From Thermotomaculum hydrothermale (lineage in GTDB: Bacteria; Acidobacteriota; Holophagae; Thermotomaculales; Thermotomaculaceae), in the NCBI RefSeq assembly GCF_016592575.1, contig NZ_AP017470.1, forward strand, positions 1,262,501-1,326,500: DNA of 64,000 bases, read 5' to 3'. Shown here one piece after another: positions 20,345 to 30,857 of this stretch (position 1 is its first letter; each line of letters opens with the position of its first letter). The notes beneath the pieces were generated by a model. That model was not told where the DNA came from. It searched no databases and saw only the letters and a program-made list of their open reading frames with translations. Both the position numbers and the translations under genes were made by a program.

Positions 20345-20376
20345 TTTTGTTAATAAATTTTAAAAAGGTGAATCAT

Positions 20377-21915
20377 ATGGTAAAGAAAAAAGAAAATTTA
20401 GAATCATTTGAGCAAAGCCTGTGGAAGGCAGCAGACAAGCTTAGAAAAAACATTGATGCTGCAGAGTATAAACATGTTGTTTTAGGGCTTATCTTTTTAA
20501 GGTATATATCAGAAGCTTTTGAGGATTTATACGAAAAACTCAAAAAAGGTGAAGGAGAATACGCAGGAGCAGACCCGGAAGACATAGACGAATACAAAGC
20601 TGAAAATGTGTTTTTTATCCCACCTGAGGCAAGATGGAGCTATCTAAAAGCTCACGCAAAAAACCCTGAAATAGGGAAACTAATTGACAATGCAATGGAG
20701 CTTATAGAAAAAATAAACACATCACTCAAAGGGGTTTTGCCAAAGGTATACGCAAGGGGAAACATTGACCCTATAAACCTCGGTGGGCTAATTGACCTGT
20801 TCAGCAATATTGCCATTAATGAAGCAAAAGAACAAACATCGGATATTTTAGGGCATGTGTTTGAGTATTTTCTGGGACAGTTTGCGTTAGCCGAAGGTAA
20901 AAAAGGTGGCCAATTCTATACCCCAAGAAGCGTTGTTGAACTTTTAGTTGAAATGCTTGAACCATACAAAGGAAGGGTATTTGACCCATGCTGTGGAAGT
21001 GGCGGAATGTTTGTTCAATCAGAAAAGTTTGTAAAAGAGCATCAAGGAAAGATTAACGACATTTCTATTTACGGACAGGAAAGCAACCAGACAACCTGGA
21101 GACTCTGCAAAATGAATCTTGCAATAAGAGGAATTGATAGCTCACAGGTAAAGTGGAATCCTGAAGGCTCATTTTTAAACGACGCTCACAAAGATTTAAA
21201 AGCAGATTTTGTAATAGCCAACCCGCCCTTTAACGACAGTGATTGGAGCGGTGAACTACTCAGAAACGATGTTAGATGGAAGTACGGTGTGCCACCTGTT
21301 GGTAATGCAAATTATGCGTGGATTCAGCATTTTATTTTTCACCTTGCACCTTATGGAAAAGCAGGTTTTGTTTTAGCAAAAGGCGCTCTTACCACAAAAC
21401 AAACTGCCGAGTATGAAATTAGAAAAAATATGATTGAAGATGACATTATAGACTGTATTGTCAATCTTCCTGCAAAACTCTTCTTAAACACACAGATACC
21501 GGCTTCTTTATGGTTTATTAGAAAAAATAAAACAACAAGAAAAGGGCAAATCCTCTTTATTGACGCAAGGGATATGGGAAAACTTATCAGCAGAAGGACA
21601 AGAATTTTAACTGAAGAAGATATTAAAAAAATTGCAAACACATACCACAAATGGCAAAAAGAAGATGAAAGTTATGAGGACATAAAGGGATTCTGCAAAT
21701 CAGTAATTATTAAAGATGTTAAAGAACTCGATTATGTATTAACCCCCGGCCGTTATGTGGGGCTTGCTGAAGAAGAAGATGACTTTGATTTTGAAGAAAG
21801 GTTTAATAAATTAAAAGGCGAGTTTTTGGAACAGTTAAAAGAAGAGGAAAGGTTAAACAAACTTATACTTGAGAATTTAGAGAAAATAGATGTTAAGGGG
21901 AAAGACGAAAGATGA
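20377..21915 (+). CDS. hsdM: Type I restriction-modification DNA N6-adenine methyltransferase (orphan HsdM)
   Basis: HsdM family: an N-terminal HsdM_N helical domain (ESFEQSLWKAADKLRKNIDAAEY) and an N6_Mtase domain with SAM motif FDPCCGSGGMF (~residue 203) and catalytic NPPF (~282). It methylates adenine only together with an HsdS specificity subunit. The 512-residue length is typical. No hsdS of its own follows; instead an AlbA_2 gene and debris occupy the space, while a C-terminal relic of a DUF3387-type HsdR lies 9 kb away. I infer it is the survivor of an older locus. I start at ATG 20377 (AAAGGTG site) rather than TTG 20347. Confidence 0.9.
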   Translation: MVKKKENLESFEQSLWKAADKLRKNIDAAEYKHVVLGLIFLRYISEAFEDLYEKLKKGEGEYAGADPEDIDEYKAENVFFIPPEARWSYLKAHAKNPEIGKLIDNAMELIEKINTSLKGVLPKVYARGNIDPINLGGLIDLFSNIAINEAKEQTSDILGHVFEYFLGQFALAEGKKGGQFYTPRSVVELLVEMLEPYKGRVFDPCCGSGGMFVQSEKFVKEHQGKINDISIYGQESNQTTWRLCKMNLAIRGIDSSQVKWNPEGSFLNDAHKDLKADFVIANPPFNDSDWSGELLRNDVRWKYGVPPVGNANYAWIQHFIFHLAPYGKAGFVLAKGALTTKQTAEYEIRKNMIEDDIIDCIVNLPAKLFLNTQIPASLWFIRKNKTTRKGQILFIDARDMGKLISRRTRILTEEDIKKIANTYHKWQKEDESYEDIKGFCKSVIIKDVKELDYVLTPGRYVGLAEEEDDFDFEERFNKLKGEFLEQLKEEERLNKLILENLEKIDVKGKDER

Positions 21916-22077: not shown

Positions 22078-23349
22078 ATGAAGTTAGAAAAGATTTTACA
22101 ACAACCGGAAAACAGAAAACTTGAATTTAAAGAGACTCTGCCAAATAAGTTTGATTTATGTAAAACTGTTGTCTCTTTTGCCAATGATGCCGGTGGTGAA
22201 ATTTATATTGGGATTAAAGATAAGCCAAGAGAAATTGTCGGTGTTCCTGAAGATGATTTATTAAAAATAGAAGAAAAAATTAGTAATATCATACATGATA
22301 ATTGCCATCCACTAATCTTACCCGATATTTTCTTTTTAAATAAAAATGACAAACATATAGTTGTAATTAAAATTTACAAAGGTAATAAACCACCATACTA
22401 TATTAAAAGCAAAGGAAAAGAAAAAGGAACTTATATTAGAGTTGGTTCTTCAAACCGACTGGCTGATAAAGAGATTATTGAAGAATTAGAAAGACAAAAG
22501 CAAGGAATATCATTTGATTCTTTACCTGTATATTCGAAAAGTGTTGATGAGTTGGAATTTTCTCTTTTTGCAAAGCAGTTTGAAGAAATTACAGATGAAA
22601 AATTAACTAAAACCATTTTAAGCAAATTAAATCTAATACTTAAAGAGCAAAACAGGAATTTCCCTACAAATGCCCTGGTACTATTATCAAACGATAAAAT
22701 TAGAAATAAACTTTTCCCATATGCAAAAATTGAATGCGCAAGGTTTAAAGGAACAACTCCAGGAGATTTTATAGACCAAAAGACTATTGATGAGCCTTTA
22801 AGCTTTCAAGCGGAAGAAGCATATAGGTTTGTTTTAAGGCATATTTCTCAAGCTTCAGTTTATGAAGGCGTTTACAGGAAAGATAGGTGGGAATATCCAA
22901 TTATTGCCATTCGTGAAGTTATAAAAAATGCTGTTATTCACAGGGATTATTCATTAAGGGGTAAAGATATAAAAATTGCAATATTTGACGATAAAATTGA
23001 AATTACAAGCCCTGGTAAATTAATGCCTACCATTGATTTTAATGATATGGAATCTGGCCAATCTGATATAAGAAATAAAGTACTTGCGTCAGTATTTAAA
23101 AAACTCGGCATTATCGAACAATGGGGAAACGGGTTAAGGTTAATTGCTGAGGAGTTAAAAAACTATCCAGAAATAAAATTTGAGTGGAGCGAGCCGGAAA
23201 TTTCATTTGGGGTAACACTTAGAAAGATAAACTATAATCTTGAAATTCAAAAGGGTGAGAACATTCAAATCGCGGCCGATTACGGACGATTACGGACGAT
23301 TACGGACAATTGCCTCTGGAAGAAAAAAAGATATTACTTTATCTTTTAG
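22078..23349 (+). CDS. AlbA_2 / HATPase_c_4 putative DNA-binding regulator, C-terminus out of frame
   Basis: The N-terminal AlbA_2 (Schlafen-type) domain is clear (residues ~1-145: RKLEFKETLP, FANDAGGEIYIGIKD, YIRVGSSNRLAD). It is followed by a HATPase_c_4 region (~260-400: IREVIKNAVIHRDYS, EQWGNGLRLI). Members sit next to restriction and defence loci; their role is mostly unknown and I do not assign one. Family proteins normally end in a winged helix. Here the frame runs through three copies of a 10-bp repeat and stops after a short unrelated tail, while the winged helix lies in another frame (23310-23504). The gene is therefore truncated as read, whether by phase variation or decay. Confidence 0.8.
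   Translation: MKLEKILQQPENRKLEFKETLPNKFDLCKTVVSFANDAGGEIYIGIKDKPREIVGVPEDDLLKIEEKISNIIHDNCHPLILPDIFFLNKNDKHIVVIKIYKGNKPPYYIKSKGKEKGTYIRVGSSNRLADKEIIEELERQKQGISFDSLPVYSKSVDELEFSLFAKQFEEITDEKLTKTILSKLNLILKEQNRNFPTNALVLLSNDKIRNKLFPYAKIECARFKGTTPGDFIDQKTIDEPLSFQAEEAYRFVLRHISQASVYEGVYRKDRWEYPIIAIREVIKNAVIHRDYSLRGKDIKIAIFDDKIEITSPGKLMPTIDFNDMESGQSDIRNKVLASVFKKLGIIEQWGNGLRLIAEELKNYPEIKFEWSEPEISFGVTLRKINYNLEIQKGENIQIAADYGRLRTITDNCLWKKKRYYFIF
23278..23307 (+). repeat. 10-bp tandem repeat GATTACGGAC x3 at the frame break
   Basis: Three perfect, adjacent copies of GATTACGGAC. Because 10 is not a multiple of 3, each gain or loss shifts the reading frame. By hand translation, 1 or 4 copies would join the AlbA_2/HATPase part in frame to the winged helix (...ADYG...QLPLEEKK...); the 3 copies present here do not. 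Confidence 0.9.
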
Positions 23350-23504
23350 ATAATGAAAAAATTACAAGGAAAGAAGCAATAAAAATCCTTGATGTTCAAA
23401 AAACCAAAGCACATGAAATATTAAGCTCATTAATTGCAAAAATACTTCAAAAGGCAAGGAAAAGGAAGAAGCACTTATTATGTTTTAAGAAGGATGAAGG
23501 GTGA
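23310..23504 (+). pseudogene. Detached C-terminal winged-helix domain of the AlbA_2 gene
   Basis: LPLEEKKILLYLLDNEKITRK then EAIKILDVQKTKAHEILSSLI is a typical winged helix-turn-helix, as seen at the C-terminus of AlbA_2/HATPase_c_4 proteins. It opens at a TTG directly behind the repeat, in a different frame from the upstream domains, and has no ribosome site of its own. The last 20 residues are lysine-rich and unlike the usual GKGRxTYY ending, so a second small frame error is possible. It is probably translated only when the repeat number changes. Confidence 0.65.
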
Positions 23505-23513
23505 AAAATGAAG

Positions 23514-23529
23514 GATGAAGCGTGAAGGG
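23514..23529 (+). repeat. Purine-rich direct repeat, right copy
   Basis: GATGAAGCGTGAAGGG, the partner of 21911-21926, within a run of related units (GATGAAGGGTGAAAAATGAAG nearby). The spacing of about 1.6 kb covers the whole AlbA_2 gene. Confidence 0.5.
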
Positions 23530-23538
23530 TGAAAAACT

Positions 23539-23911
23539 ATGGATGAAAAAATAATACGAGTTGAAGAAATTGAATCCAAAATTTATACGATAAGAGGTGT
23601 CCAGATAATGCTTGATAGTGACCTCGCAAATCTTTATGGGGTTGAAACAAAAAGATTACTGGAACAGGTTCGAAGAAACAAAGAACGTTTCCCTGAAGAT
23701 TTTATGTTTCAATTAACAAAAGAAGAATTTGAGTCTTTAAGGTCGCAAATTGCGACCTTAAAAAAAGGAAGAGGCAAACACAGAAAATATCTCCCCTATG
23801 CCTTTACAGAGCAGGGAATAGCAATTGCTTTCAGCAGTAAAAGATTTAAGCAAAAAAGTTTTTGCATTTTCAAAAATGGATAGCGAAGGTTTAAAAATTT
23901 TATTAATATAG
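23539..23911 (+). pseudogene. Decayed ORF6N/KilA-N-type DNA-binding protein gene
   Basis: The first 95 codons are a good ORF6N domain: IYTIRGVQIMLDSDLANLYG, RRNKERFPEDFMFQL, YAFTEQGIA. Soon after TEQGIA the frame slips and ends at 23883. In the next frame, from 23825, the family-like continuation LLSAVKDLSKKVFAFSKMDS runs to TAG 23911. Full-length members continue much longer, so there is a frameshift plus an internal deletion. ORF6N proteins occur in phages and next to restriction loci. It is probably no longer functional. Confidence 0.75.
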
Positions 23912-23941: not shown

Positions 23942-26911
23942 ATGTTTGTTAAAGAACAAAATATAGAAGAAAAATTGATTAAAAAACTTCGTGAGCTTAA
24001 TTATGTCTATCGTTCAGACATTCGTGATAGGGAATCTTTAGAAAAAAATTTTAGGGAAAAATTTGAATCCTTAAATAGAGTAAAACTTACAGATAATGAA
24101 TTTGAGCGTTTGTTAGAACAGATAACATCACCTGATGTTTTTAGTTGTTCAAAAATACTTCGTCAACAAAATACCTTTGAACGAGAAGACAGAACTCCTC
24201 TGCACTATACACTTGTAAATATCAAGGATTGGTGCAAAAACACTTTTGAAGTGGTAAAACAAATCAGAATAAACACAAAAAACAGTTTTCAAAGATACGA
24301 TGTGATTTTATTGATAAATGGCCTTCCTTTGGTGCAAATTGAGTTGAAATCTTTAAAAATCAGCCCAAGAAGAGCCATTGAACAAATTGTAAAATATAAA
24401 AATGAACCTGGAAACGGATATGGCAATACGCTATTGGCTTTTATGCAGCTATTTATAGTTAGCAATTTTTCAGAGACTTGGTATTTTGTAAACAATAACA
24501 ACGAGCATTTTAAGTTTGATGCTAATGAACAATTTCTGCCTATTTACAAATTTGCAGATCCAGACAATAAAAAAATTACCCAACTTTACGAATTTGCCAA
24601 AAAATTTCTCTCTAAATGTACACTTGCCGAGATGATTGGCCGTTATATGGTGCTTATTGAAAGTGAAAGAAAACTCCTAATGATGCGTCCTTATCAGATT
24701 TATGCAGCTAAAGCTATTGTTGATTGTATTCATCAAAATAGAGGCAATGGCTATATCTGGCACACAACAGGTAGCGGTAAAACTCTCACTTCCTTCAAAG
24801 CTTCAACCCTTTTAAAAGATAACCCAGATGTGGAAAAGGTTTTGTTTGTTGTGGACAGAAAAGACCTTGATAAACAAACCCGTGAAGAATTTAATAAATT
24901 TCAGCCAGGTTGTGTTGAAGAGAACACAAATACAAGAATGCTTGTAAACAGGCTTTTATCTGATGATTATAAAAATAAAGTTATTGTAACAACAATTCAA
25001 AAGTTAGGGCTTGCATTAGATGGAAACAATAAGAAGGAATACAGAAAACAGCTTGAACCTTTAAAAAATAAAAGAGTAGTTTTTATTTTTGATGAATGCC
25101 ATCGTTCCCAATTTGGAGAAAACCATAGGGCTATACGCGAATTTTTCCCAAATGCTCAACTCTTTGGATTTACAGGGACGCCGATTTTTGAAGAAAATGC
25201 CTCATACAAAATAAGAGAGGGGAAAGAATTAAGATTTAAAACCACTGAAGATATTTTTCAAAAATTGTTGCATGCCTATACAATTACTCATGCGATTGAT
25301 GACGGAAATGTACTAAAATTCCGTGTTGAATACTACAAACCAAAGAGTGACACAGACATTGCCCCAAAAGACCTTCCTACTAAAAGGGCAATTATAGAAT
25401 CAATACTTGAAAAACATGACAAACTAACAAATTTCCGTCGTTTTAATGCTTTATTTGCAACTGCTTCAATCAATGATGCCATAGAATACTATGAACTTTT
25501 TCAAAAAATCCAGGAAGAAAAGCAAAAAGAAAATCCTGAGTTTAAACCTTTAAATCTTGCCTGTGTATTTTCTCCTCCAGCAGAAGGCAACAAAGACATA
25601 CTTCAGCTTCAAGAAGATTTGGAACAAGAAAAGGAAGACCTTAAAGTTGAGCCAAATAAAAAGAAAGAGGCACTTAAAAAAATCATTAGTGATTACAATA
25701 AAAAATATAAGACTCATCACGACATATTTAATTTTGACATCTATTATCAGGACATACAAAAAAGAATTAAAGATCAAAAATACCCCAATAATAATTTACC
25801 CCATAGGGAAAAAATAGACATAACCATTGTTGTTGATATGCTTCTTACAGGTTTTGATTCTAAATACTTAAACACTCTATATGTTGATAAAAATCTTAAA
25901 TATCATGGCCTTATTCAGGCATTTTCAAGAACAAACAGAGTGCTTAACAACACAAAACCTTATGGAAATATTATTGATTTTAGAGCGCAAAGAAATAATG
26001 TTGACGAGGCTATTGTTCTATTTTCTGGAGAGAAAAAGAAAGGAGCAAAAGAAATATGGATTGTTGACCCTGCTCCAGTGATTATAGAAAAATATAAAAA
26101 TGCAGTTGAAAATCTAAAAACTTTTATGGAATCACAAAATCTTGAATTTAACCCGTCAGAAGTTGCAAATCTTAAAGGAGATGAAGCCAGAATTGAGTTT
26201 ATAAATACCTTTAAAGAAGTTCAACGGTTGTTTACTCAGATTGACCAGTACACTGATATATCAGATGAGGATAAGAAAAAGATTGAAGAGCTTTTGCCTG
26301 AAGAAAGTTTGACAAGTTTTCGTACGGTTTACCTTGACCTTGCAAGAGACATTAGAGAGCGTCAGGGAAAAACAAAAGACTCTGATGACCCCATTCAGCA
26401 GGTTGATCTGGAATTTGTGCTATTTGATTCCGCTTTGATTGATTATGATTACATAATGAAATTAATTAGTAAATATACATATCAAGAGCCCAAAAAGCAG
26501 GAAGTTACAAGAACCCAACTTATAGAAATGCTTTCGTCAAATGCAAAATTTTTAGATGAAAAAGAAGACCTTATTGAATATATAAACAGCCTTGAAAAAG
26601 AAAAACCTTTAAACGAAGAGGATGTTAGAAAAGGCTATGAGATTTTTAAGGAGAATAAAAGGAAAAATGAGCTAAAGGAGATTGCTAAAAAGCATGGGAT
26701 AGAATTTAGTTCTTTATTTAACTTTGTAAATAATATTCTTGATAGAATGATATTTGATGCAGATGCCTTAACTGAGCTTTTGGCTCCTTTAAATTTAGGC
26801 TGGAAGGCAAGAGCAAAAAAAGAACTTGCATTAATGGATGATTTGATACCTATTCTTAGAAAACTTGCACAAGGGCAAAATATTTCAGGATTAGAGGTTT
26901 ACGATGAGTGA
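23942..26911 (+). CDS. hsdR: Type I restriction enzyme motor/nuclease subunit HsdR
   Basis: A 989-residue HsdR of the EcoR124I-like (type IC) kind. The N-terminal PD-(D/E)xK nuclease shows RYDVILLINGLPLVQIELK (~residues 116-135). The SF2 translocase has Walker A TTGSGKT (~277-283), DECH (FDECHRS), FTGTP and a motif VI-like IQAFSRTNR, followed by a helical C-terminus that binds the methylase. It cleaves unmethylated DNA after ATP-driven translocation, in complex with HsdM2S. AGGAG precedes the ATG. It overlaps hsdS by 8 bp and heads the operon hsdR-hsdS-prrC-hsdM. All motifs are intact. Confidence 0.95.
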   Translation: MFVKEQNIEEKLIKKLRELNYVYRSDIRDRESLEKNFREKFESLNRVKLTDNEFERLLEQITSPDVFSCSKILRQQNTFEREDRTPLHYTLVNIKDWCKNTFEVVKQIRINTKNSFQRYDVILLINGLPLVQIELKSLKISPRRAIEQIVKYKNEPGNGYGNTLLAFMQLFIVSNFSETWYFVNNNNEHFKFDANEQFLPIYKFADPDNKKITQLYEFAKKFLSKCTLAEMIGRYMVLIESERKLLMMRPYQIYAAKAIVDCIHQNRGNGYIWHTTGSGKTLTSFKASTLLKDNPDVEKVLFVVDRKDLDKQTREEFNKFQPGCVEENTNTRMLVNRLLSDDYKNKVIVTTIQKLGLALDGNNKKEYRKQLEPLKNKRVVFIFDECHRSQFGENHRAIREFFPNAQLFGFTGTPIFEENASYKIREGKELRFKTTEDIFQKLLHAYTITHAIDDGNVLKFRVEYYKPKSDTDIAPKDLPTKRAIIESILEKHDKLTNFRRFNALFATASINDAIEYYELFQKIQEEKQKENPEFKPLNLACVFSPPAEGNKDILQLQEDLEQEKEDLKVEPNKKKEALKKIISDYNKKYKTHHDIFNFDIYYQDIQKRIKDQKYPNNNLPHREKIDITIVVDMLLTGFDSKYLNTLYVDKNLKYHGLIQAFSRTNRVLNNTKPYGNIIDFRAQRNNVDEAIVLFSGEKKKGAKEIWIVDPAPVIIEKYKNAVENLKTFMESQNLEFNPSEVANLKGDEARIEFINTFKEVQRLFTQIDQYTDISDEDKKKIEELLPEESLTSFRTVYLDLARDIRERQGKTKDSDDPIQQVDLEFVLFDSALIDYDYIMKLISKYTYQEPKKQEVTRTQLIEMLSSNAKFLDEKEDLIEYINSLEKEKPLNEEDVRKGYEIFKENKRKNELKEIAKKHGIEFSSLFNFVNNILDRMIFDADALTELLAPLNLGWKARAKKELALMDDLIPILRKLAQGQNISGLEVYDE

Positions 26912-28151
26912 AAAAGAGAAGAAAAAACTAATCCCAAAATTTAGGTTCCCCGAGTTTAAGGATTCAGGCGAGTGGAAAAAAATTCCTATTTCAAATGTTC
27001 TTATAGAACATAAAAGTATAAGTACAGGAAGAGAAAAAGTGTATTCTGTATCAGTAAATAAAGGATTAGTAGAACAAATAAAACATCTTGGCAGAAGTTT
27101 TGCTGCAGCTAATACAAAAAACTATAAGTTAGTTTTACCTGGAGATGTCGTATATACTAAAAGTCCTACTGGTGATTTTCCTTTTGGAATTATCAAACAA
27201 AGTAAGTTAAATTTTTCCGTAATAGTATCTCCGTTATATTTGGTTTTTTCTCCCCCAAATTATGCTATTGGAACTATTTTAAATTCATATTTTGAATCAC
27301 CAGAAAGAGCTAAAATTTATCTTGAACCACTTATTCAAAAAGGTCCTAAGAATACAATAAACATTACTCCCCAGAGGTTTCTTTCGGGGAAAATATCATT
27401 GCCACCCGAAGAAAATGAACAGCAAAAGATAGCTGATTGTCTTTCGTCGATTGATGAGGTTATAGAGTTAGAAGAAAAGAAACTTGAAAAATTGCAAAAG
27501 CACAAAAAAGGTCTAATGCAAAATCTCTTTCCAAATGAAGGCGAAAAAGTTCCCCGTTTCCGTTTTCCCGAGTTTAAGGATTCAGGGGAGTGGGAAGAAA
27601 AAAGATTGGGAGAAATTTTTCAAGAAAGAAATGAAAGAAATGGCAATGGAAAATTTGAATTGCTTTCTGTTACTATTTCAAAAGGTGTTGTAAAAACATC
27701 TCAATTAGAACGAAAAAATAATACTACTTCTGATTTCTCAAATTATAAGAAAGTTTATCCTAATGACATTGTCTATAATTCAATGAGAATGTGGCAAGGA
27801 GCCAGTGGTGTTTCAAAATGGAGTGGAATTGTTAGCCCGGCATATACAGTGCTAAAACCTCTAAGTGATCAAAATTCGGTCTTTTGGGCTTATTATTTTA
27901 AGAAATCAACAAGTGTAGAAAATTTTAAACGTTTTTCTCAAGGGTTAACTCCTGACACTTGGAATTTAAAATTCCCTATTTTTTCAAAAATTAAAATGAT
28001 AGTTCCAAAATTAAAAGAAGAACAGCAAAAAATTGCTGACTGTCTTTCATCACTCGATGAGATTATAGAACTTCAGACTAAGAAGATAGAGCTATTAAAA
28101 CAACACAAAAAAGGATTGATGCAAGGATTATTTCCTTCAATTGAGGATTAG
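26904..28151 (+). CDS. hsdS: Type I restriction specificity subunit HsdS
   Basis: A 415-residue HsdS with two target-recognition domains in tandem, each opened by P-x-FRFPEFKDSGEW (near residues 11 and 213) and closed by a conserved helix (EQQKIADCLSSIDEVIELEE; EQQKIADCLSSLDEIIELQT) ending in HKKGLMQ. Each domain recognises one half of a bipartite DNA target; the helices set their spacing. The two halves share long near-identical DNA stretches (20 identical bases at 26949-26968 and 27567-27586). The target sequence cannot be predicted. Confidence 0.95.
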   Translation: MSEKEKKKLIPKFRFPEFKDSGEWKKIPISNVLIEHKSISTGREKVYSVSVNKGLVEQIKHLGRSFAAANTKNYKLVLPGDVVYTKSPTGDFPFGIIKQSKLNFSVIVSPLYLVFSPPNYAIGTILNSYFESPERAKIYLEPLIQKGPKNTINITPQRFLSGKISLPPEENEQQKIADCLSSIDEVIELEEKKLEKLQKHKKGLMQNLFPNEGEKVPRFRFPEFKDSGEWEEKRLGEIFQERNERNGNGKFELLSVTISKGVVKTSQLERKNNTTSDFSNYKKVYPNDIVYNSMRMWQGASGVSKWSGIVSPAYTVLKPLSDQNSVFWAYYFKKSTSVENFKRFSQGLTPDTWNLKFPIFSKIKMIVPKLKEEQQKIADCLSSLDEIIELQTKKIELLKQHKKGLMQGLFPSIED

Positions 28152-28153
28152 AA

Positions 28154-29248
28154 ATGGCAAATAATAATATATCAACTTTTAATACAATTGAAGAGCTTGC
28201 ACAGTATTTAAGGCAACAATTAGAAAATAAGAAAGTTATATTAATATATGCTTATAACGGAACTGGTAAAACCCGTCTTTCAATGGCTTTTAAGGATTTA
28301 GGAAAGCAAGGAGATGAAAGGGACACACTTTATTTTAATGCGTTTACAGAAGATTTATTTGTCTGGGATAATGACCTTGAAAATGATACCTATAGAATGC
28401 TTAAAATGAATACAGCGTCTCGCTTTTTCAAGGGACTTCAAGAGTTTGAGATAGAAAACAGAATCGCATCTTTTTTACATAGATATGCTGATTTTAACTT
28501 TGACATAGATTACAGTGAAGGAACCATCCGTTTTTGGAGAGAAGTGAATAAAGATAATGAACCGATACTAATTAAAATATCTCGTGGTGAAGAAAATATC
28601 TTTATTTGGTGTTTTTTTGTTGCTATTGCTCAACTTGCTATAGATAAACAGGAGGCATACGAATGGGTTAATTACATTTATATCGATGACCCTATTTCCT
28701 CCCTTGATGACAATAATGCAATAGCTGTGGCTGCTACTCTTTCAAAATTGATAAAGGGACAGGACGATATTAAGGTTGTGATTTCTTCTCACCATACATT
28801 GTTTTTTAATGTTCTATGTAATGAAATGGGAAGAGCCTTAAAGTATTTCTTAAGCTATAAAGATGATAAATATGAATTAAGAAGTACCAATGATACACCG
28901 AGATTTTATCACGTTGCTATGTTAAAGGAGCTTTATGAGGTTGCTAAATCAGGAAAGATTTATACTTATCATTTTACAATTCTTAGAAGTATTTTAGAAA
29001 AAACAGCAACTTTTCACGGATTTAACAGTTTTAAAGATGTAGTAAAAAGGTTTGATGATGATGAAGAGGGCATTATTTATACTCGTGTGATTAATCTTTT
29101 GAGTCATGGTAATTATTCTATTTTTGAACCTATTGAAATGCTTGAAGAAAACAAAAAATATTTTAGGGAAATATTAGAAGATTTTATGAAGAATTATAGA
29201 TTTAATCCAGAGTTATTCCCCCAGGAAACTATAGAAGAGGAGGCTTAA
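28154..29248 (+). CDS. prrC: PrrC-type tRNA anticodon nuclease
   Basis: A 364-residue protein that matches E. coli PrrC throughout, as I recall that sequence. The N-terminal ABC-like NTPase has YAYNGTGKTRLS (Walker A, 36-40), NAFTEDLFVWDNDL, ISRGEENIFIW (signature), YIDDPISSLDDN (Walker B, 177-184) and an H-loop ISSHHTLFFNVL. The C-terminal nuclease keeps the catalytic triad R278, E282 (YHFTILRSILEKTATF) and H318 (RVINLLSHGNYS). Known PrrC lies silent in a type I restriction complex and cuts tRNA-Lys at the wobble base when a phage peptide blocks restriction. The gene sits 2 bp after hsdS and 1 bp before hsdM, the expected setting. Its target tRNA here is not known. Confidence 0.93.
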   Translation: MANNNISTFNTIEELAQYLRQQLENKKVILIYAYNGTGKTRLSMAFKDLGKQGDERDTLYFNAFTEDLFVWDNDLENDTYRMLKMNTASRFFKGLQEFEIENRIASFLHRYADFNFDIDYSEGTIRFWREVNKDNEPILIKISRGEENIFIWCFFVAIAQLAIDKQEAYEWVNYIYIDDPISSLDDNNAIAVAATLSKLIKGQDDIKVVISSHHTLFFNVLCNEMGRALKYFLSYKDDKYELRSTNDTPRFYHVAMLKELYEVAKSGKIYTYHFTILRSILEKTATFHGFNSFKDVVKRFDDDEEGIIYTRVINLLSHGNYSIFEPIEMLEENKKYFREILEDFMKNYRFNPELFPQETIEEEA

Positions 29249-29249
29249 A

Positions 29250-30857
29250 GTGACTAACAATGATAACAATAAACTTGGTAAGGTATTATGGAATATTGCA
29301 AATGAACTTCGTGGTTCAATGAATGCCGACGATTTTAGAGATTATATGCTTTCGTTTTTATTTTTACGGTATATATCTGATAATTATGAAGAGGCTGCAA
29401 AAAAGGAATTGGGAAGTGATTGGCCTGAATTAGAAGAAGATGACAGGCGTTCCCCTCTTTCTGTTTGGTATGAAAAAAATAAAGAAGATGTAGAAGAGTT
29501 TGAAAAGCATATGCGTAGAAAAGTGCATTATGTTATAAAACCTGAGTATCTATGGAATAGTATTGCCGAAATGGCCCGCATCCAAAATAATGATTTATTA
29601 AAAACTTTAGAAAGGGGATTTAATTTTATAGAAAATGAATCTTTTTCAAGGAATTATAAAGGCCTTTTCTCAGAGATAAATCTTAACTCGGAAAAACTCG
29701 GCAAAAACTATGAAGAAAGGAATAAAAGACTTTGTGCAATTATTCAAAAAATTTCAGAGGGATTCTCAGAGTTCCCTAAAGATAGAGACCTTCTTGGTGA
29801 CGCATATGAATATTTAATAGGACAGTTTGCAGCAGGCTCAGGGAAAAACGCAGGAGAATTTTACACACCACAGCAAATTTCAAGTATTTTATCTGGTATT
29901 GTCTCTTTAGATAGCCAAGACCCTTCAACAGGACGTAGAGCAAAATTAAATAAAGTACTCGATTTCGCATGCGGTTCAGGTTCATTGCTCCTTAATGTAA
30001 GAAAACATATGGGAAAAAATGTAGGGAAACTTTACGGACAGGAAAAAAATATTACCACGTATAACCTTGCTCGTATGAATATGCTTTTACATGGTGTAAA
30101 AGATACTGAATTTGAAATTTTTCACGGAGATTCATTAACAAATGATTGGGATATTTTAAGAGAAGAAAATCCTGCTAAAAAGATGGAATTTGATGCAGTT
30201 GTCGCAAATCCGCCTTTTAGTTATCGCTGGAATCCCCCAGAATCATTAAAAGACGATTTTAGGTTTAAGGGATATGGACTTGCACCTAAATCTGCGGCTG
30301 ATTTTGCTTTTTTGCTTCACGGTTTTCATTTTTTAGCAAAAGACGGAACAATGGCAATTATTTTACCCCATGGTGTTTTATTTAGAGGAGGCGTTGAGAA
30401 AAAAATTCGTAAAAAATTGCTTTTAGATGGAAATATTGACACTGTTATAGGACTTCCTCCAAAACTTTTTTATTCTACAGGCATTCCCGTTTGTATTCTT
30501 GTTTTAAAGAAATGTAAGAAATTTGATGATGTTCTATTTATTAATGCAAGTGAACATTTTGAAAAGGCTAAAAGGCAAAATGTATTGTTGCCTGAACATG
30601 TTAAAAAGATTGTAGAAACCTATCAGTATCGAAAAGAAGAGAAACGTTTTTCTCGTCGTGTTTCACTGGATGAAATAAAAGAAGAACATGATTTTAATTT
30701 AAATATTTCCCGTTATGTAAGCACTGCTAAGCCAGAGGAACCAGTTGATATTTATAAAGTTAACGAAGAATTGAAGGAAATAGAGAAAAAATTAAAGCAT
30801 GCAAAGGAAAAACACAATAAATTTCTTGAAGAACTAAGACTTAAGTTACTTCCATAA
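29250..30857 (+). CDS. hsdM: Type I restriction-modification DNA methyltransferase HsdM of the prrC operon
   Basis: A 535-residue EcoR124I/EcoprrI-like HsdM. HsdM_N domain at the start (NIANELRGSMNADDFRDYML), N6_Mtase core with SAM motif DFACGSGSLLL (~residue 240) and catalytic ANPPFSYRW (~319-323), and a charged helical C-terminus that contacts HsdS. Start GTG 29250 has a GAGGAGG site six bases upstream; no ATG competes. It closes the operon. It differs clearly from the orphan HsdM at 20377, so the two belong to different systems. With HsdS alone it would protect host DNA. Confidence 0.94.
   Translation: MTNNDNNKLGKVLWNIANELRGSMNADDFRDYMLSFLFLRYISDNYEEAAKKELGSDWPELEEDDRRSPLSVWYEKNKEDVEEFEKHMRRKVHYVIKPEYLWNSIAEMARIQNNDLLKTLERGFNFIENESFSRNYKGLFSEINLNSEKLGKNYEERNKRLCAIIQKISEGFSEFPKDRDLLGDAYEYLIGQFAAGSGKNAGEFYTPQQISSILSGIVSLDSQDPSTGRRAKLNKVLDFACGSGSLLLNVRKHMGKNVGKLYGQEKNITTYNLARMNMLLHGVKDTEFEIFHGDSLTNDWDILREENPAKKMEFDAVVANPPFSYRWNPPESLKDDFRFKGYGLAPKSAADFAFLLHGFHFLAKDGTMAIILPHGVLFRGGVEKKIRKKLLLDGNIDTVIGLPPKLFYSTGIPVCILVLKKCKKFDDVLFINASEHFEKAKRQNVLLPEHVKKIVETYQYRKEEKRFSRRVSLDEIKEEHDFNLNISRYVSTAKPEEPVDIYKVNEELKEIEKKLKHAKEKHNKFLEELRLKLLP

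Follow-up and report, generated by a model that had tools for sequence, protein, structure and literature searches.

The 10-bp sequence GATTACGGAC, present in three copies in the AlbA_2/HATPase gene of the Thermotomaculum hydrothermale window (the whole stretch of 64,000 nucleotides that was analysed, with a G+C content of 35%, from a genome that consists of one 2.3 Mb contig), is the window copy of a family-wide linker array whose unit measures 10-12 bp, or about one helical turn of DNA. We regard the full account given below as probable, i.e. that the array is common to the family, that array and winged helix (wHTH) make up a cassette, that the window gene is broken, and that the array is a target of the wHTH.

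According to the ORF list, Pfam and our frame analysis, the AlbA_2/HATPase open reading frame extends from 22078 to 23349 on the forward strand and encodes 423 amino acids. Pfam places an SLFN_AlbA_2 domain at residues 11-129 (PF04326, 9e-26) followed by a HATPase_c_4 domain at residues 295-381 (PF13749, 1e-24), which is the head of an AlbA_2/HATPase_c_4 (COG2865-like) regulator. The C-terminal winged helix, which in such regulators is in frame with the head, is cut off from it here by two frameshifts. An earlier note on this DNA reported a 10-bp unit three times in a row, and this was confirmed: perfect copies of GATTACGGAC lie head-to-tail at 23278, 23288 and 23298 (array 23278 to 23307, forward strand), and the sequence is absent elsewhere in the 64 kb on both strands. 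TRF describes the array with a period of 10, 3.9 copies and a score of 64, and across 400 kb of the same genome it found no period-10 arrays. The array is situated between HATPase_c_4 and the wHTH and its unit falls within the 10-13 bp of the linker-array family described below. The note was also right that the frame leaves the wHTH at the array and that three copies give a truncated product, since array and wHTH are in different frames and the head is followed by a wrong-frame tail that reaches a stop codon at 23347-23349, 13 codons beyond the array. The N-terminal part of a TrmB-like winged helix (LPLEEKKILLYLLDNEKITRKEAIKILDVQKTKAHEILSSLIAK) is found in frame 0 at 23310 to 23446 on the forward strand; the window wHTH scores 21.2 bits against Pfam TrmB, under the cut-off of 25.6.

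When copy numbers were simulated, one or four copies joined the head to the frame-0 wHTH, and zero, two, three, five or six copies failed to do so. The copy number thus alters the reading frame as in a contingency locus, both by this frame arithmetic and by the one-unit difference between the relatives L065 and L086. The earlier note had expected that one or four copies would restore a full-length protein, and of this only the arithmetic holds, as the C-terminus of the family is in another frame. The conserved wHTH end in relatives is KGRSTYYVL, and its counterpart in the window, KRQGKGRSTYYVLRRMKGEK at 23449-23508 (with the stop codon 23449 to 23511, forward strand), is read in frame 1, the frame of the head, while the frame-0 reading given by one or four copies ends in the unrelated residues QKARKRKKHLLCFKKDEG. 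DNA alignment with four relatives revealed a net loss of 2 bp at about 23446 to 23447 on the forward strand, a second lesion that was overlooked in the earlier reading of the gene. Because this deletion brings the C-terminus back into the frame of the head, one or four copies are not in themselves sufficient to restore the protein. The final 230 bases of the window gene therefore hold two independent frameshifts, and the 2-bp deletion in the wHTH means that this is not an otherwise intact gene in which one slippage restores function. With the array out of frame and the wHTH carrying a second frameshift, the window protein would terminate behind the head, and most likely this is a decaying gene rather than a phase-OFF allele. 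In a genome of the same genus (G003) the family gene runs off the contig end before any readable array.

The window gene lies in a type I restriction-modification (R-M) locus with PrrC, in which Pfam and PADLOC give the order hsdM, AlbA_2 gene, ORF6N gene, hsdR, hsdS, PrrC-like gene and second hsdM. On the forward strand these are hsdM at 20347 to 21915 (N6_Mtase 6e-113, HsdM_N), the ORF6N-domain gene next downstream of the AlbA_2 gene at 23539 to 23883 (114 residues with a near-complete domain, ORF6N 5e-36), hsdR at 23942 to 26911 (intact, 989 residues; HSDR_N, SWI2_SNF2, EcoR124_C), hsdS at 26904 to 28151 (415 residues; Methylase_S in two stretches) and the gene for the PrrC-like protein at 28154 to 29248 (364 residues; PADLOC PrrC 8e-137, Pfam AAA_13), after which the second hsdM follows at 29250-30857. 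The ORF6N gene contains a perfect 25-bp palindrome, TTAAGGTCGCAAATTGCGACCTTAA, at 23737-23761, and its homology seems to be lost past 'AFTEQGIAIAFSS', so that this gene may be truncated. Between the AlbA_2 and ORF6N genes TRF reports degenerate 7/14/28-bp GAAGGATGAAGGGTGAAAA repeats at 23489-23547, and GGATGAA repeats resembling these occur in L011 after the upstream AlbA_2-type gene.

The two lesions could be artefacts of assembly or sequencing, with a false copy number or a false 2-bp deletion in a gene that is really intact; short repeats are prone to miscounting, and the Desulfothermus draft that contains the homologue L004 shows many false-looking frameshifts, including one in hsdM. Two independent errors 140 bp apart would be needed, one of them of 10n bases, in a single-contig 2.3 Mb assembly. 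In addition hsdM, hsdR, hsdS, the PrrC-like gene and the second hsdM of the locus all run without interruption, which makes such errors unlikely, and we consider this explanation very improbable.

To place the array in a wider context, ten close homologues (from several phyla by record title) were collected first and the set was then extended to 71 nonredundant homologues. L002, L003, L004, L006 and L011 carry a GATTACGRMC array of 1.9 to 8 units in the corresponding linker; in the ten homologue-bearing genomes tandem GATTACGRMC pairs were confined to the linker, and a reversed control pattern gave none. The wHTH is intact in L002, L003, L006 and other homologues. TRF detected an array no more than 330 bp past the HATPase domain in 44 of the 71 homologues. 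From these L045 was removed, as its array sits just downstream of the gene, and in L073 the top TRF call is a 12-bp array located where the HATPase domain ends, which hides an 11-bp array in the linker. After correction a linker array is present in 43 of the 71 homologues, against about 0.6 expected from background, and no linker array was detectable in the other 28. The unit is 10 bp in 5 of the 43 arrays, 11 bp in 17, 12 bp in 20 and 13 bp in one, and the unit sequences are highly diverse. Three arrays were found elsewhere in the family genes, and at least that of L011 belongs to the linker of a neighbouring paralogue. For the background, 779 kb from the homologue genomes and the genome of the window, there were 21 arrays with units of up to 15 bp, spread over 6-15 bp and with five of 10-12 bp. 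A test of unit period against this background gives p about 5e-10 with relatedness ignored; this and the p-value below are optimistic, because the homologues are not independent. The suggestion in the earlier note that a one-off duplication had killed the gene is hence wrong, the array being a family-wide feature.

The array-bearing proteins are often encoded within type I R-M loci, and in Azotobacter a family gene (L103) belongs to a BREX system, where brxC and pglX flank it, so the family extends beyond type I R-M. In L045 the 11-bp array, GGACGATTAGA in 2.7 copies, lies shortly past the stop codon and outside the coding sequence, and the linker itself is without an array. When E. coli was searched for within-species variation in copy number, neither a homologue nor an array was found, and IMG/VR contained no close protein and no GATTACGRMC array. 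Two candidates were set aside: in M. hyorhinis, where the wHTH is annotated as a separate gene, the cause is a point stop and the array is absent, and L166 and L167, considered as having a different head, proved by Pfam to combine AlbA_2 and HATPase_c_4 with Fic-like_C at the end, which makes their annotation 'Fic family protein' misleading. Among L244-L273, Bacteroidota sequences matching PF21247, many Fic-like_C wHTH domains occur in short headless frames and several of the matching sequences contain internal stops, a pattern that suggests frequent decay or stand-alone wHTH genes.

Of the 24 usable genes whose array has a non-triplet unit (10 or 11 bp), 22 keep the wHTH in frame, where one third would be expected at random (binomial p about 4e-9, relatedness ignored), and therefore selection purges OFF alleles rather than maintaining an ON/OFF mixture. 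The two exceptions are the window gene and L086, both of which have other disabling mutations. L086 is 99.2% identical to L065 over 2 kb and short by exactly one 11-bp unit, and this loss places an otherwise readable wHTH, in frame in L065, out of frame; L086 is further damaged by an insertion (+1) around codon 26 and by a second 11-bp deletion close to the 3' end. The L064 array differs from that of L071 by 21 bp, and the CCAAGTNACCCC unit occurs in 3, 4 or 5 copies among near-identical phage genes. It is clear that between close relatives the copy number changes in steps of whole units and that selection keeps the frame, and the out-of-frame alleles look like dying genes with no maintained OFF state. 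The out-of-frame Desulfothermus gene L004, which has 8 units, was excluded as an OFF allele as the hsdM gene is frameshifted too.

These results bear directly on the slipped-strand switch proposed in the earlier note, where 10-bp slippage would reversibly toggle the wHTH and the genome was caught in the OFF state. Such a contingency locus would account for an array with a non-triplet unit in a gene within a restriction-linked locus, for the differences in copy number between relatives and for the natural one-unit ON/OFF difference in the 11-bp pair L065/L086. It does not agree with the in-frame state of 22 of the 24 usable non-triplet arrays, nor with the +1 insertion and additional 11-bp deletion in the OFF allele L086, the second frameshift in the window wHTH, or the three copies, which are short for frequent slippage. 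What survives of the proposal is that the array is hypervariable in relatives; for the window gene itself switching is unsupported, because its wHTH is broken twice, and we find a working switch here distinctly doubtful.

Unit similarity follows the wHTH: in 51 genes the partial Mantel r was 0.62 with the head partialled out (0 of 2000 permutations), compared with 0.05 (p 0.12) between unit and head given the wHTH. In the Arcobacter-group plasmid genes L106 and L164, identity is about 97% as far as the array, drops to about 60% across array and wHTH, and is 100% immediately after the wHTH, from which it follows that array and wHTH were replaced together. We infer that array and wHTH form one cassette which is exchanged jointly. 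It could be argued that the arrays are handles for recombination, where homologous or slipped pairing in the array drives wHTH exchange as the conserved regions of hsdS do for TRD exchange. Array and wHTH are indeed exchanged as a single block with the array as its 5' border, and tandem paralogues exist (L011 with its upstream gene, and two copies on the G563 contig C122). This would leave the fixed unit length unexplained, and since the arrays of L106 and L164 differ, their crossover took place in the near-identical DNA that precedes the array and not inside the array, which leads us to consider a recombination handle unlikely.

A different aspect of the units is seen in L098, L109 and L168, which have the common unit GAGTCACGGCTA and are assigned to three phyla (L168 as a cyanobacterium per its record, L098 and L109 by the group searched). 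Their array codons are identical in 12 of 12 cases, compared with a match of only 24-42% between their wHTH codons for identical residues. Leucine is rarely encoded by CTA (about 4-5%) in the L098 and L103 loci, yet this codon is present in every unit. In 72,556 plasmids (7.3 Gb) the GAGTCACGGCTA array matches only two family genes, and CCAAGTTACCCC arrays were not found in the plasmid scan, possibly owing to low-complexity masking. A comparison of all units for shared 5-6-mers picked up GTAAATG, a signal that was disregarded because only units translated in one codon frame contributed to it. Part of the unit conservation in the 12-bp PF21247 class could be due to a V-T-x-Q/E peptide that is itself conserved.

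Arrays of family units are also found in apparently intergenic phage DNA (L177, L191, L209, L216, L218, L171, L227) and within phage genes that encode no wHTH; a unit search of phage contigs hit 49 of them, against one for the scrambled unit. On the IMG/VR contigs L178-L225, CCAAGTNACCCC arrays of variable copy number were observed in phage genes and in apparently intergenic DNA. One group of intergenic CCAAGTNACCCC arrays is bordered by GTCACA...TGTGAC repeats, and the arrays so flanked are possibly an origin or operator.

Taken together, the covariation of unit and wHTH, the synonymous conservation and the intergenic phage copies point to a constraint on the DNA itself. If the array were a spacer of the protein only, its length, set by slippage, would fix the distance between head and wHTH and its DNA sequence would be irrelevant, as for the TAEL repeat of EcoR124I/II. 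The position between domains, the preserved reading frame, the in-frame differences in copy number (including those among the near-identical phage genes, with 3, 4 and 5 copies) and the EcoR124 precedent (PMC3874165) are all in line with a spacer. It would not explain why 10- and 11-bp units are read in three frames and 9- and 15-bp units are absent, why three genes assigned to different phyla have identical synonymous codons, why the unit is tied to the type of wHTH, or why there are intergenic copies in phages. For these reasons we think it rather unlikely that the array acts in the protein alone.

We tentatively propose, with slightly less than even confidence if the rest of the account holds, that the array is kept as DNA because it is the predicted cognate target of its own wHTH. 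The array would then be an in-gene operator or iteron of the encoded wHTH, and a swapped wHTH would bring its own site along, for instance for autoregulation. The array would be needed as DNA and translated as a linker, and slippage would sometimes kill the gene, as in the window. The gene flanks contained no extra unit copies above shuffled controls, so no second operator is visible there. The arrays in phage genes without a wHTH weaken the predicted binding between array and wHTH. A bolder version, which we find possible but would not favour, is that each wHTH carries its own target array as a joint specificity cassette and that the intergenic phage arrays are competing or targeted sites.

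If each wHTH does carry its own target, the arrays would amount to a ready-made table of wHTH recognition sequences. The specificity of the R-M- and BREX-linked regulators, a large and poorly understood group, would be readable from their genes if the array is the cognate site, and there would be a second swappable specificity module beside the target-recognition domains of HsdS. Whether or not the arrays are bound, the result cautions against taking a tandem repeat of non-triplet unit in an R-M gene, on its own, as evidence of phase variation.

In the literature, our search with the terms tried found no description of these linker arrays or their function. In HsdS of EcoR124I and EcoR124II the repeat unit is a single in-frame 12-bp sequence (TAEL) with a known effect of length on specificity (PMC3874165). 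The family arrays resemble this case in that a short tandem repeat separates two functional domains of a protein from an R-M locus, that a 12-bp unit occurs, and that changes are by whole units with the frame kept. They differ in that the unit may be 10, 11 or 12 bp long, varies widely in sequence and is tied to the type of wHTH, and in that the protein is not HsdS. Slipped-strand contingency loci such as mod and hsdS likewise have non-triplet repeats in the coding sequence whose copy number sets the downstream frame, but the family units are longer, the arrays are short, the alleles are nearly always in frame and those out of frame carry other lesions. The COG2865-like proteins, annotated as 'RecG-like', 'RNA-binding domain-containing' or sometimes 'Fic family', have both domains and the array position of the window gene, and unlike these relatives the window copy is without a readable wHTH. 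A passage of PMC6022878 describes the replication origin of phage lambda as lying inside gene O. The likeness to gene O is that of a repeated DNA element within the gene of its binder, in our family a predicted one. In lambda the iterons are repeated protein-binding DNA inside the gene of the binding protein, for which binding is proven, and they are longer than the family units and part of a replication origin.
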